Shown here: one piece after another, positions 16,552 through 41,735 of the stretch | How the letters are laid out: each line of letters opens with the position of its first letter | Position numbering within the stretch: the first letter of the stretch is position 1 | NCBI GenBank assembly: GCA_947595925.1 | Contig: CANQEV010000001.1 | Location: 1-64,000 of the forward strand | DNA length: 64,000 nt | Source of the DNA: an uncultured Acetatifactor sp. | Lineage (GTDB): Bacteria; Bacillota; Clostridia; Lachnospirales; Lachnospiraceae | Direction of reading: 5' to 3' | Program-made: the position numbers and the translations under genes | The notes under the pieces: model-generated | The model's input: only the letters and a program-made list of their open reading frames with translations | What the model was told of the DNA's origin: nothing | Databases searched by the model: none

Positions 16552-17005
16552 TACCCACAGAAGAAACGAAAATTATTTTAGGGTGCTGGAAATGCATAAG
16601 CCGGACCTGGTGATCCACTGCGGGGACGCGGAGGGCAGCGAGTACGCGCTGACAGAGGCCGCGGACTGCCCTGTAAAGATCGTACTGGGCAACAACGACT
16701 TCTTCTCAGACCTGCCCAGGGAGCTGGAGCTGGAGATCGGCGGTTACAAGGTCTGGGTCACCCACGGCCACACATACTATGTCTCCATGAGCATCGAATA
16801 CATCGCGCAGGAGGCCAAGGCCAGGGGAAAAGACATCGTCTTCTATGGACACACTCACAAGCCCTCCGTGCAGAAGGTGGACGGCGTGTACGTGGTCAAT
16901 CCGGGCAGCCTCTCCTTTCCCAGGCAGGACGGCCGCAAACCCTCCTACTGCATCATGGAGATCGATCGTTTCGGGGAAGCGCACTTTACCATCGCCTATC
17001 TCTAA
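16529..17005 (+). CDS. YfcE-type metallophosphoesterase
   Basis: This 158-residue protein is a small calcineurin-like phosphodiesterase. The metal ligands are visible: VSDTHRR (5-11), HCGDAEGS (about 31), LGNNDFF (54), THGHTY (75) and FYGHTHKP (about 107). Homologues act on phosphodiesters in vitro; the cell substrate is not known. It overlaps the pyrophosphatase gene and is surely co-transcribed. A 10-bp stem-loop follows the stop. Confidence 0.93.
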   Translation: MKVIVVSDTHRRNENYFRVLEMHKPDLVIHCGDAEGSEYALTEAADCPVKIVLGNNDFFSDLPRELELEIGGYKVWVTHGHTYYVSMSIEYIAQEAKARGKDIVFYGHTHKPSVQKVDGVYVVNPGSLSFPRQDGRKPSYCIMEIDRFGEAHFTIAYL

Positions 17006-17018
17006 AGAGTACCCTGGT

Positions 17019-17046
17019 ATTTGCCGTGAGGAGATGCACGGCAAAT
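17019..17046 (+). terminator. Stem-loop after the phosphodiesterase gene
   Basis: ATTTGCCGTG (17019-17028) pairs perfectly with CACGGCAAAT (17037-17046), with an 8-base loop. A T-run (ATTTTTC) follows after 8 bases, so termination is likely but not ideal. Confidence 0.65.
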
Positions 17047-17081
17047 CACCGGCATTTTTCAAAAATTAAACCGTCGGTTTA

Positions 17082-17135
17082 TTGACGGGAGGAAAAAGTT
17101 CCTGTATCCTGAAATCAGGATACGCAAGATCAGGA
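17082..17135 (+). promoter_or_regulatory. Promoter with overlapping palindromic operator, upstream of the Y-like RNAs
   Basis: TTGACG (17082-17087) and TATCCT (17105-17110) are exactly 17 bases apart. The -10 lies inside a perfect palindrome: GTATCCTGA (17104-17112), two A, TCAGGATAC (17115-17123). A further half-site ATCAGGAT follows at about 17129-17136. A repressor bound here would cover the -10 and the start site (about 17117). The regulator is unknown and not encoded next to it. Confidence 0.75.
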
Positions 17136-17167
17136 TGTGCGAAGAGTTGAATTTGTGTTATGTTTTT

Positions 17168-17295
17168 CGCCGGCAGCTAATCAGGTTTACTTCTGGGCGG
17201 ATGGGGTCGTGGGTTCGAATCCCACCGGATTCTTTGGGATCCGTAGCTCAGCGGGAGAGCATATTCATTTAATCTGATGATAACGCCGGCGTTTT
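17168..17295 (+). ncRNA. Y-RNA-like RNA with a circularly permuted tRNA fold (YrlA type)
   Basis: Read 5' to 3': a terminal helix CGCCGGC (17168-17174) pairs with GCCGGCG (17285-17291); an internal loop AGCTA / GATAAC; an 8-bp helix 17180-17187 with 17271-17278; then a complete tRNA core. Its parts are an anticodon-like stem GGATG (17199-17203) with TATTC (17262-17266), variable GGGTC, T arm GTGGG-TTCGAAT-CCCAC (17209-17225), acceptor strands CGGATTC (17226-17232) and GGATCCG (17237-17243) closed by TTTG, TA, and D arm GCTC-AGCGGGA-GAGC (17246-17260). The acceptor ends are joined, so it cannot be charged. This matches the tRNA mimicry described for bacterial Y RNAs. TTTT follows the terminal helix. 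Confidence 0.85.
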
Positions 17296-17297
17296 CC

Positions 17298-17360
17298 ATG
17301 CCCGCAGCTAGCAGCGCTTACTTCCCAGGATAGGTTGCAGCGCTGCGATCACGCGGGCGT
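17298..17360 (+). ncRNA. Second, minimal Y-like hairpin without a tRNA module
   Basis: Directly after the first RNA, GCCCGC (17300-17305) pairs with GCGGGC (17353-17358), extended by two outer pairs. Then come an internal loop AGCTA (17306-17310) opposite GATCAC (17347-17352), and an 8-bp helix GCAGCGCT (17311-17318) with AGCGCTGC (17339-17346). The apical loop begins TACTTC, as does the segment after the same helix in the first RNA. The helix sequences differ but the loop motif and lengths are kept, which argues for a conserved protein-binding structure. It may instead be a folded leader of the next gene, whose ATG is 27 bases away. Confidence 0.7.
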
Positions 17361-17386
17361 TCCAGGACGGATGAAGAGGAGAGGCT

Positions 17387-19468
17387 ATGGAACAGATTTT
17401 TCGGGATTATTTATTTCAGAAGAAAATTTTGGTAAGTGAGGGCGGGGAAAAGGAAGAACATATACTGGAGACGCTGTTCTCCCTGGCAAACCTTTTCAAC
17501 ATCCGTATCACGGCGGGAGAGGAGTATGCCCGCAGTGAGATGATCTCCTATGTCTCGGACCAGCTTGGAACGAAGGTGCCGGAGCCTTTTTACCGGGGCT
17601 TCCCCCAGAGCGTTCGGGAACTGTCCGCGGATCAGCTTCTCTTTGATCAGATCCTGCACTATACCGTGACTTACGGGTTTGGCAACTTTTCCGAGGCGGG
17701 GCATTCTCTTTTTGAAGACGAATTTGAGAGACTGGCCTTTCGGGAAAATTGTGAGATCAAGGAATTTGTGATCCTTCCCGAAAAGGAGGCGGCGGAAAAA
17801 CTGCAGGAGTACGCGGAGGATCTGCTGGCGGGGACGAGGCCGTTAAGCGATACTCAGTTCAAAATGGTCTGCCGGCTGGTCCAGGTTTATGACTGGAAAG
17901 CGAAGCATTGCGCTTCAAAAAATACGGCGGTTCGGCTGCTGATAACGCTCCGCGACCGGAACTTTGCCAGGTTTCTTGCGCTCCCGGACCTGATCAAGGT
18001 CGCAGAGGAGATCAATTACCGGGATTACGGCAGCGTGAATATCAAAAAGCTGAATCTGAAGAATCAGGACCGCAAGTTTCTCACGGCCCTGCTGGATGAT
18101 TTCCTCGCTTCGGGCAGGGATTCTATTTCGGAATGTTATGAAAAAAAGGCCGTCTGGTGCGGTCTTCTGCATCACCTTCATTATCGCCCGAAAAATGAGG
18201 CAGGACAGCAGTTCGTGGAAGCTATGCGCGGAAAAGGGAACCGGTCCGTTTACGCGCAGTTTGAAAAGGCCATGGCCGCAGGAGATATCCGGGAGGCCGT
18301 GGACAGCTTAAAGAGCGGCAAGGGCTCCGGCGCGCTCTACCGCAGCCTGAATTACATTGTCAGCAGGATCGAGAGCGAGGAAGACCTGGATTATGTTCTG
18401 GAAAATCTGGGGGCCGGGAACGGCGTTCTCCTGCTGCAGATGCTTCTGCGGTTCACAAATCCTGAGGAGTCGGAAAAGCAGAGACGGCGCACCTTTCGGT
18501 TTACGAAGTTTAATCAGATGAAGGTGTATTCGGAAACTGAGGAAGATATGCTGCGCAGAAAATCTCTGATCTCCGCTGAAAAGGAGGAGAAAATAAGGGA
18601 TTTCCTTTGGGCGAAACTCTCCGCCGCTTTCCGGGATCGGCTGGGAAAGGTTTACGTCGATCCTGCCATGAAGAATATAGCGCTTCCCATTCAGGAGAAT
18701 ACCGCTCAGGGCGGTTTTGGAGTTCTGGCAAAAGGCTCCAGGATCCATGTCCCGGAGGGAAAAAAGATCCGCGCCTTTACCTATTGGGAGAGGGTCAACG
18801 ACATCGATCTCTCGGTGATCGGTGTGGACAGGGAGGGACGGCAGACGGAGTTTTCCTGGCGCACCATGGCGGGAAGGCAGTCGGACGTCCTGACCTATTC
18901 CGGGGACGAGACCAGCGGCTATTCAGGAGGATCGGAATATTTTGACGTGGACTTAAATGCTTTCCAGAAACTTTATCCGAACATAAAATATCTGGTCTTC
19001 TGCGATAACGTGTTCTCACGTACGCCCTTTGACCAGTGTTTCTGCAAGGCAGGCTATATGCTGCGGGATCAGCAGGACTCCGGCGAAGTCTTTGAACCGA
19101 AGACCGTGCAGACCTCTTTTCTGATCAACTGCGGCAGCACGTTTGCCTATCTGTTCGGCATCGATCTGGAGCGCGGTGATTTCGTCTGGCTCAATGTGAG
19201 CCGGAGCGGTGATGTGACGGTTGCAGGTACCACGGACGTAAGTTTTCTGGTAGATTACTTCCATGTTACCGATATCATCAACGTTTATACCTTCTTTGAA
19301 ATGATGGCGTCGCAGATGGTGGAGGATCCGGACGAGGCGGAGGTGATCGTGTCCGATGTGTATGTTCCCCGCAAGGCAGATGCACCGGATCAGGCGGCCA
19401 AGGCCCCCGAGATCATCCGCAGCAATGATTTTGAAAGGCTGATCGCGCTGATGAACCTTATGGACTGA
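17387..19468 (+). CDS. Helical-repeat protein with C-terminal TerD-like domain
   Basis: This 693-residue soluble protein has a long helical N-terminal part (about 1-430, with HEAT-like units such as KNTAVRLLITLRDR and KAVWCGLLHHLHYR) and a TerD-like domain at about 445-620. The TerD features are GSRIHVPEGKKI, then DIDLSVIGVD, LTYSGDETSGYSGGSEYFDV and a LVFCDN strand. TerD domains bind calcium and occur in tellurite and stress resistance systems. The architecture recalls the MXAN_6230/SCO0854 family; this is from memory. There is no vWA MIDAS motif, so it is not a Ro60/Rsr protein. GAGGAGAGGCT precedes the ATG. It sits just downstream of the two Y-like RNAs, probably on the same transcript. 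Confidence 0.75.
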   Translation: MEQIFRDYLFQKKILVSEGGEKEEHILETLFSLANLFNIRITAGEEYARSEMISYVSDQLGTKVPEPFYRGFPQSVRELSADQLLFDQILHYTVTYGFGNFSEAGHSLFEDEFERLAFRENCEIKEFVILPEKEAAEKLQEYAEDLLAGTRPLSDTQFKMVCRLVQVYDWKAKHCASKNTAVRLLITLRDRNFARFLALPDLIKVAEEINYRDYGSVNIKKLNLKNQDRKFLTALLDDFLASGRDSISECYEKKAVWCGLLHHLHYRPKNEAGQQFVEAMRGKGNRSVYAQFEKAMAAGDIREAVDSLKSGKGSGALYRSLNYIVSRIESEEDLDYVLENLGAGNGVLLLQMLLRFTNPEESEKQRRRTFRFTKFNQMKVYSETEEDMLRRKSLISAEKEEKIRDFLWAKLSAAFRDRLGKVYVDPAMKNIALPIQENTAQGGFGVLAKGSRIHVPEGKKIRAFTYWERVNDIDLSVIGVDREGRQTEFSWRTMAGRQSDVLTYSGDETSGYSGGSEYFDVDLNAFQKLYPNIKYLVFCDNVFSRTPFDQCFCKAGYMLRDQQDSGEVFEPKTVQTSFLINCGSTFAYLFGIDLERGDFVWLNVSRSGDVTVAGTTDVSFLVDYFHVTDIINVYTFFEMMASQMVEDPDEAEVIVSDVYVPRKADAPDQAAKAPEIIRSNDFERLIALMNLMD

Positions 19469-41477: not shown

Positions 41478-41499
41478 AACATAAGAAAAGCAATGACGG

Positions 41500-41735
41500 A
41501 AAAGAGTAGTTTAGTGAGAAGCATCCAGAGAGAACAGTGTTTGGTGAGAGCTGTTTATGCGGAGATTAGACGAAAACCATTCCAGAGCTGTAATGCAGAA
41601 TTAAGTAAGCGTTACCGTATGCCTGCGTTAAAGGATAGGATTTGATGGAATCCGAAGTGAAAAATTAAGGTGGAACCGTGCTGAATGCACCCTTAGGACT
41701 ATTTGATAATGGTCTTATGGGTGCTTTTCTTATGT
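41500..41735 (+). promoter_or_regulatory. T-box riboswitch leader
   Basis: The leader shows the T-box order: GAGTAGTTTAGTG, an AGAGAGAACAGTG bulge region with TTTGGTGAGAGCTG distal loop, the T-box proper AGGTGGAACCGTG (41668-41680), and a terminator GCACCC...GGGTGC (41687-41692 with 41719-41724, extended by about 8 inner pairs) followed by TTTTCTT. It senses an uncharged tRNA and lets transcription read through. By comparison with tyrS-type leaders the specifier after GAA would be AAC (Asn), near 41575; AAA or ACC cannot be excluded. It controls the Fe-S protein gene downstream. Confidence 0.9.

Follow-up and report, generated by a model that had tools for sequence, protein, structure and literature searches.

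Here we describe a locus in a 64,000-nt stretch of DNA from an uncultured Acetatifactor sp. (the window: positions 1–64,000 of contig CANQEV010000001.1, assembly GCA_947595925.1), in which two small RNAs with one common stem stand directly ahead of a gene for a 693-aa protein. Ro60 is the protein that holds Y RNAs, and Ro60 particles are RNA quality-control complexes found from animals, where they are autoantigens, to bacteria. We consider it likely that the locus encodes a compact ribonucleoprotein of this kind, composed of the two RNAs and a Ro60-like protein with a TerD-like domain in place of vWA. Computation shows the two RNAs with their conserved stem, the tight linkage of both to the gene, a motif in common with RNAs beside genes of the Ro60 family (TROVE) and the TerD-like fold of the protein. 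An earlier sequence-only reading had described a single element, which is present (RNA 1), and had overlooked the tandem RNA 2 (17300–17358).

RNA 1 is a bulged stem with a permuted tRNA body

The features of RNA 1 are as follows, with the basis of each in brackets; R1 denotes a basal-stem covariance model described below, and MFE the minimum free energy fold.

17168–17291, forward strand: RNA 1, Y-RNA-like with a permuted tRNA module (R1 45.8 bits, local YrlA match, fold, covariation in relatives)
17168–17187, forward strand: basal stem, 5′ side, with helix H1 17168–17174, AGCUA 17175–17179 and helix H2 17180–17187 (sequence, MFE, covariation of the homologous stem)
17187–17193, forward strand: UUACUUC motif, adjoining H2 (sense-strand motif counts upstream of gene relatives and TROVE genes)
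17199–17266, forward strand: permuted tRNA body with anticodon-like stem, T arm 17209–17225, acceptor and loop 17226–17243 and D arm 17246–17260 (covariation)
17271–17291, forward strand: basal stem, 3′ side, with H2′ 17271–17278, GAUAAC 17279–17284 and H1′ 17285–17291, then UUUU (sequence, MFE)

H1 (17168–17174/17285–17291, 7 bp) and H2 (17180–17187/17271–17278, 8 bp, one G-U) enclose the internal loop AGCUA/GAUAAC. In the tRNA body, the T arm is followed by the acceptor 3′ strand, the UUUG loop, the acceptor 5′ strand and finally the D arm. Every helix named in the sequence-only reading can be drawn: the anticodon-like stem (17199–17203/17262–17266, 5 bp, two G-U), the T stem (17209–17213/17221–17225), the acceptor (17226–17232/17237–17243, 7 bp, one G-U, closed by UUUG) and the D stem (17246–17249/17257–17260). 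Of the conserved tRNA bases that it listed, U8 (17244), A9 (17245), A14 (17250) and UUCGAAU are in place.

Positions 17168–17295 fold at −48.5 kcal/mol (z −2.81), and none of 200 shuffles was equally good; the folding check proposed earlier, on 17160–17300, gave z −2.26 with 4 of 200 shuffles as good. The MFE of 17168–17291 includes all 7 pairs of H1, all 8 of H2 and 6 of the 7 acceptor pairs. Two results weigh against the cloverleaf: this single-sequence MFE has no pairs in the T, D or anticodon-like stems, and the cloverleaf as drawn scores −41.9 kcal/mol, ~6 kcal/mol short of the MFE (−47.9 kcal/mol). The tRNA body of RNA 1 therefore rests on comparison.

For this comparison, scanning a single genome from each species yielded 189 places encoding relatives of the adjoining gene, the best 80 of which were kept (L034–L113); Lachnospiraceae are named in the titles of 53 of the 80 (counted by hand), and many are rumen samples. 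Alignment A3 holds 36 permuted modules (34 minus L083, plus those of the window and of L025 and L027, two loci of the same genus), and alignment A2 holds 53 plain-loop RNAs (55 minus L061, L079, L102 and L108, plus the window and L025). A filter had earlier removed L078, three standard-order RNAs of L113, L064 and L103 (on score), and the L113 RNA at −1146, in which the D-arm motif was not seen. In A3, 93.9% of cells pair, two-sided changes occur in 17 of 21 pairs, and the covariation score is 0.518 against 0.191 ± 0.013 for shuffled alignments; the anticodon-like stem is the weakest helix, with 75.9% of cells paired. In A2, two-sided changes occur in all 13 basal-stem pairs, and the score (0.995 against 0.332 ± 0.018 shuffled) is far above that of partners slid by 1–3 columns. 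The sequence-only reading had staked itself on compensatory changes in homologues, and these are present in both stem and body. Comparative sequence evidence thus confirms the predicted architecture of RNA 1, in which a basal stem with a bulge bears a tRNA body in circularly permuted order.

RNA 2 repeats the stem without the tRNA body

17300–17358, forward strand: RNA 2, plain loop, no tRNA body (R1 53.9 bits as a member of the R1 training set; fold z −2.05)

RNA 2 consists of H1 (17300–17305/17353–17358), AGCUA (17306–17310), H2 (17311–17317/17340–17346), UUACUUC (17318–17324) and GAUCAC (17347–17352), that is, GCCCGC-AGCUA-GCAGCGC-UUACUUC ... GCGCUGC-GAUCAC-GCGGGC. The stem common to both RNAs is H1-AGCUA-H2-UUACUUC...H2′-GAUnAC-H1′. 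Six of 200 shuffles folded as well as RNA 2. When up to 2 mismatches were allowed, GCAGCTA-N7-TTACTTC was found in the window just at RNA 1 and RNA 2, exact in both, against 0.26 occurrences expected.

Both RNAs precede the same gene in L025 and L027, with changes that are compensatory by eye. In L028 (genome G115), two plain-loop RNAs stand before the gene, the first truncated by the contig end; in L026 (G118), no recognisable RNA was found within the 212 nt between the gene and the contig end. L025 additionally carries short tandem repeats, each of ~28 nt, that adjoin the promoter on its 5′ side and so lie close upstream of RNA 1. In L011/L029 (G024), RNA 1 fuses to coding sequence and the remaining RNA and the gene start are missing, through either a deletion or an assembly chimera.

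The stem is linked to relatives of the gene

R1 was built from A2 and run on both strands of the 80 loci (673 kb, E ≤ 0.01). It gave 115 matches, up to 51 of which are its own training sequences. All are on the strand of the gene, 113 upstream, 2 downstream and none inside it; these counts supersede those of a script, whose 133 sense and 9 antisense hits included low-scoring ones that were clearly false. Upstream sequence of 200 nt or more was available in 73 loci; a match was present in 64 of these 73, and in 61 of the 73 one lay no more than 700 nt upstream of the gene. RNA 1, which lies outside the training set, was itself recovered at 45.8 bits. In the 700 nt upstream of gene relatives at 73 loci, [U/A]UACUUC occurred 111 times in sense and 4 times in antisense orientation, with ~6 expected per strand.

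Among the 392 genomes searched in the order, at least 3 contained R1 RNAs, a lower bound because the strict search scored just 13 candidates per genome, and close protein relatives (>1000 bits) were found in the same 3. TROVE genes occurred in 2 others; all these numbers are small. Six further genomes with weaker protein matches (20–146 bits) had no R1 RNA. No such RNA–protein pair was found in the open-licence PMC literature; the RNAs or the motif may already be in print.

Comparison with YrlA and TROVE-linked RNAs

According to PMC8394870, YrlA is attached to the Rsr ring by its basal stem, and PNPase binds to its tRNA-like domain, which steers the enzyme to structured RNA. The Rfam YrlA model (RF02553) matched the RNA 1 module at 34.6 bits (E 8e-6), short of the gathering score of 69; sub-threshold matches also occurred in 7 of 14 control genomes, so this match alone is weak. 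At the gathering score Rfam reported nothing at this locus, and elsewhere in the window two tRNAs and a T-box. At E ≤ 5, it gave five matches within 16900–17500, among which YrlA alone is notable, and nothing at RNA 2.

The YrlA model comprises a 6-bp H1, a 5-nt 5′ bulge, a 7-bp H2 and a permuted tRNA module. RNA 1 likewise has a long bulged basal stem joining its 5′ and 3′ ends (MFE and covariation) and a permuted tRNA-like domain (covariation and the local YrlA match), which RNA 2 lacks; RNA 1 of L121 (G482), where the sequence resembles that of L092, titled E. uniforme, aligns to the full model (1–114) at 46.5 bits. The bulge differs, being AGCUA/GAUAUC here and AUGCU with an 8-nt 3′ side in YrlA. 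In addition, the partner gene here is not TROVE by sequence, and plain-loop sister RNAs accompany the permuted ones. The earlier proposal of a YrlA-type Y RNA is borne out in part, in the general build and in the compensatory changes.

The second comparison was with TROVE genes at 14 loci: L128 and L129 from the order; L132 and L134, two of three IMG/VR loci (the match in L133 is identical to that in L132); and L135–L144, ten of 394 phage records, hand-picked for variety among 40 listed. Within ~700 nt upstream of these genes, [U/A]UACUUC had 26 sense occurrences, spread over 12 of the 14 loci, and no antisense occurrence; gene-start positions of L140–L144 differ slightly between two motif counts, both of which give 26. 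In 14 of the 26 cases, GYGNRG stood exactly 7 nt before the motif. Placement of [U/A]UACUUC next to H2 is a criterion derived in this analysis rather than a published one, and both RNA 1 and RNA 2 show it; a test for an H2 partner in the TROVE-linked RNAs was too permissive and was not counted. These RNAs (in L128, L129, L132, L134–L136, L138–L142 and L144, up to 4 per locus) come from Clostridia and phages, and several carry T-arm-like sequence. They resemble RNA 1 and RNA 2 in having [U/A]UACUUC, in 14 of 26 cases at a 7-nt spacing after the bulge motif, but their bulge is GYGNRG rather than AGCUA, and R1 matched none of the 9 TROVE loci searched. Rfam, run on five TROVE loci, gave upstream YrlA matches in two, L129 (38.5) and L138 (50.0 and 39.6), all below the gathering score; L128 and L134 had no YrlA match at E ≤ 0.05. 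From the motif and spacing counts, the spacing and motif are common to RNAs beside genuine Ro60 genes. Because the stem matches are gene-linked and the motif is shared with TROVE-linked RNAs, the Y-RNA reading of the pair is supported. The earlier statement that no Ro60/Rsr protein is encoded nearby is probably wrong, given the predicted structure described below.

[U/A]UACUUC also offers a handle on RNAs upstream of phage TROVE genes. In L138 (Xanthomonas phage Olaya), four such RNAs lie at positions ~85–720, upstream of the TROVE gene, in a stretch with no annotated features, and L134 and L141 have four each. In L140 (phage csAssE-Sib), the region upstream of the Ro sixty-related gene has three [U/A]UACUUC motifs, interspersed with two annotated tRNAs, Tyr and Lys; instead of being free tRNAs, these two may belong to Y-like RNAs as modules. 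None of the motif stretches is annotated as Y RNA in the nine annotated phage records examined.

The adjoining protein has a predicted Ro60-like fold

17387–19468, forward strand: 693-aa protein, helical-repeat region with a Ro60-like predicted fold and C-terminal TerD-like domain; candidate RNA partner

The gene starts 28 nt past RNA 2. In a genus sample, the protein had a match at E ≤ 0.001 in 10 of 101 genomes, and besides the window's own, four matches were full or nearly full length (54–61% identity). Downstream, neighbouring open reading frames split 86 on the same strand to 55 on the opposite strand, so a fixed operon is not suggested.

All sequence-based routes from this protein to Ro60 failed. 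The TROVE profile (PF05731) had no match in the protein or elsewhere in its genome, and a Pfam scan of the protein gave no family above cut-off and no RING family. Residues 285–610 match NF041916 RING_SCO0854 (E 5.2e-30), but at 104.3 bits against a cut-off of 600 and with no RING in the protein. Foldseek returned no significant match.

The link to Ro60 comes from predicted structure. A first AF2 model, from 7 sequences, was poor (pLDDT 64.8), and we relied on a second (pLDDT 82.2). The model aligns with Ro60/Rsr/TROVE structures: VIA lists 8 Ro60/TROVE entries, with an aligned length ~3 times that of most unrelated helical rows, likewise in the poorer model. Against this, two unrelated VIA rows do as well as or better than the lowest-placed Ro60 rows. 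A Ro60-like fold of the helical part is suggested only. The C-terminal domain has a predicted TerD fold, and the vWA domain that ends Ro60 was not found in the protein. The 693-aa protein is the probable cognate Ro60-like partner of the RNA pair.

The protein could instead be an unrelated helical-repeat/TerD RNA-binding protein that came to hold Y-like RNAs by convergence. The absence of TROVE sequence similarity, the Foldseek result and the sequence match to NF041916 would all fit such an origin, as would eight loci of distant relatives, 7 of which lack the motif upstream and which have at most one isolated motif. The VIA alignments, reproduced in the poorer model, and the RNA core of UUACUUC at 7-nt spacing common to RNAs beside TROVE genes point the other way, and we regard convergence as unlikely.

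The RNAs may be transcribed separately

17082–17110, forward strand: candidate promoter, TTGACG-17-TATCCT, ending ~58 nt before RNA 1; weak (1 found versus 0.5 expected in shuffles)

We surveyed the sequence ahead of the first RNA in 62 loci, a set that includes the window and two relatives. In 40 loci a −10 box with at least 5 of 6 bases was present (21% when shuffled), and both boxes in 26 (3.2%). Twenty-one of the 40 boxes end 12–15 nt ahead of AGCUA, so that a few nt separate them from H1. None of the 40 boxes is that of the window, whose candidate sits at a greater distance upstream. In G482, an RNA (C19:11857–11915) lies ~87 kb from the gene (99080–101137) on the same contig. The promoter boxes at RNA 5′ ends and this distant RNA favour action in trans as separate transcripts, as judged from sequence.

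A cis-acting leader would make the stems a 5′ untranslated region controlling the gene, with the tRNA mimic sensing tRNA-binding factors. The 28 nt from the end of RNA 2 to the ATG and the nearness of matches to the gene in 61 of 73 loci suit this explanation. Against it stand matches downstream of the gene (L088 and L101), ~2.5 kb upstream (L073) or ~87 kb away, RNA numbers that vary up to 7 in L113 (script count), and the many loci in which promoter-like boxes adjoin the 5′ end of the RNA. We regard a leader as improbable as the whole account, although leader and separate RNA roles could coexist.

The loop module varies on a constant stem

The stem is constant and its loop variable: by script, 37 RNAs carry T-arm and D-arm motifs, 8 a T arm alone, and many are plain. 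L083 and L103 have permuted bodies with a D arm that we read as Leu-like (the isotype is our own reading). L113 has seven RNAs with tRNA-like modules by script, of which R1 finds five at E ≤ 0.01. Three of the seven run in ordinary tRNA order; ARAGORN calls two of these tRNAs of unclear anticodon, and the Rfam tRNA model matches the third and one of the two ARAGORN-called.

A type III toxin–antitoxin-like module, with RNA antitoxins ahead of a toxin gene, would share the arrangement of RNAs preceding one gene on the same strand, but it is very unlikely, as the RNAs are not identical repeats, many carry tRNA mimics, no PADLOC family was found for the 3 proteins scanned, and the window protein has no Pfam family above cut-off. 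Least credible of all is that RNA 1 is a permuted or decayed tRNA gene maturing into tRNA: the body is complete with conserved bases, but it opens into H2 in place of an anticodon loop, its acceptor is closed by the 4-nt UUUG without a free end, the enclosing stem covaries, plain-loop sister RNAs use the same stem, and ARAGORN called no tRNA at RNA 1.

A proposed Ro60/Y-RNA-like particle

For the Ro60/Y-RNA-like particle that we favour, we infer binding, gating, partner and physiological role by analogy. As Rsr does with YrlA, the protein would grip the basal stem at the AGCUA/GAUAUC bulge and UUACUUC, leaving the loop module as effector, so that the protein would be served by the unchanging stem and the partner by the module that varies. 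The permuted body of RNA 1 may dock a tRNA-binding partner, either a nuclease such as PNPase or tRNA-modifying or -cutting enzymes, while the plain-loop RNA 2 would merely occupy or gate the protein. The likely use would be to sort, protect or degrade structured or damaged RNA under stress; in Salmonella, rsr-yrlBA sits with rtcBA in an operon induced by damaged tRNA, as PMC7790460 reports. Recognition of nucleotide derivatives has been proposed for TerD (PMC7159879), and, speculatively, the TerD-like domain might make the particle signal-responsive.

The RNA pair and its probable Ro60-like partner probably extend the known Ro60/Y-RNA kind with a group that escapes both the TROVE profile and the YrlA gathering score. 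With TerD naturally swapped in for vWA, tRNA-like modules that can be exchanged and a stem for protein binding that is sharply defined, the group makes the purpose of the Y-RNA effector domain directly testable. More tentatively, and with the balance somewhat against it, the group could represent a second lineage of Ro60 that the TROVE profile misses, having TerD for vWA and its own Y-RNA class with a swappable display slot in the loop. If so, tandem RNAs would use one unvarying protein-binding stem to display differing tRNA likenesses (permuted bodies with or without Leu-like D arms, and the standard-order bodies of L113), and the arrays could be decoys or adaptors for several tRNA-directed enzymes, such as tRNA-cutting nucleases in phage or toxin attack.

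Other observations

In L078 (~430–610), a permuted tRNA-like RNA has its acceptor loop replaced by a long extra stretch (loop of 155 nt). L126 (G271) shows Leu-like T and D arms in permuted order downstream of a distant protein relative, with a poorly paired acceptor. The window also contains a T-box leader at 41484–41697 (116.8 bits). Another permuted tRNA-like RNA of the same genus, in L021 (G025, 1495–1563; YrlA 34.9 bits), is flanked by open reading frames read as RtcB (116–1348) and slipin-like (1875–2984).
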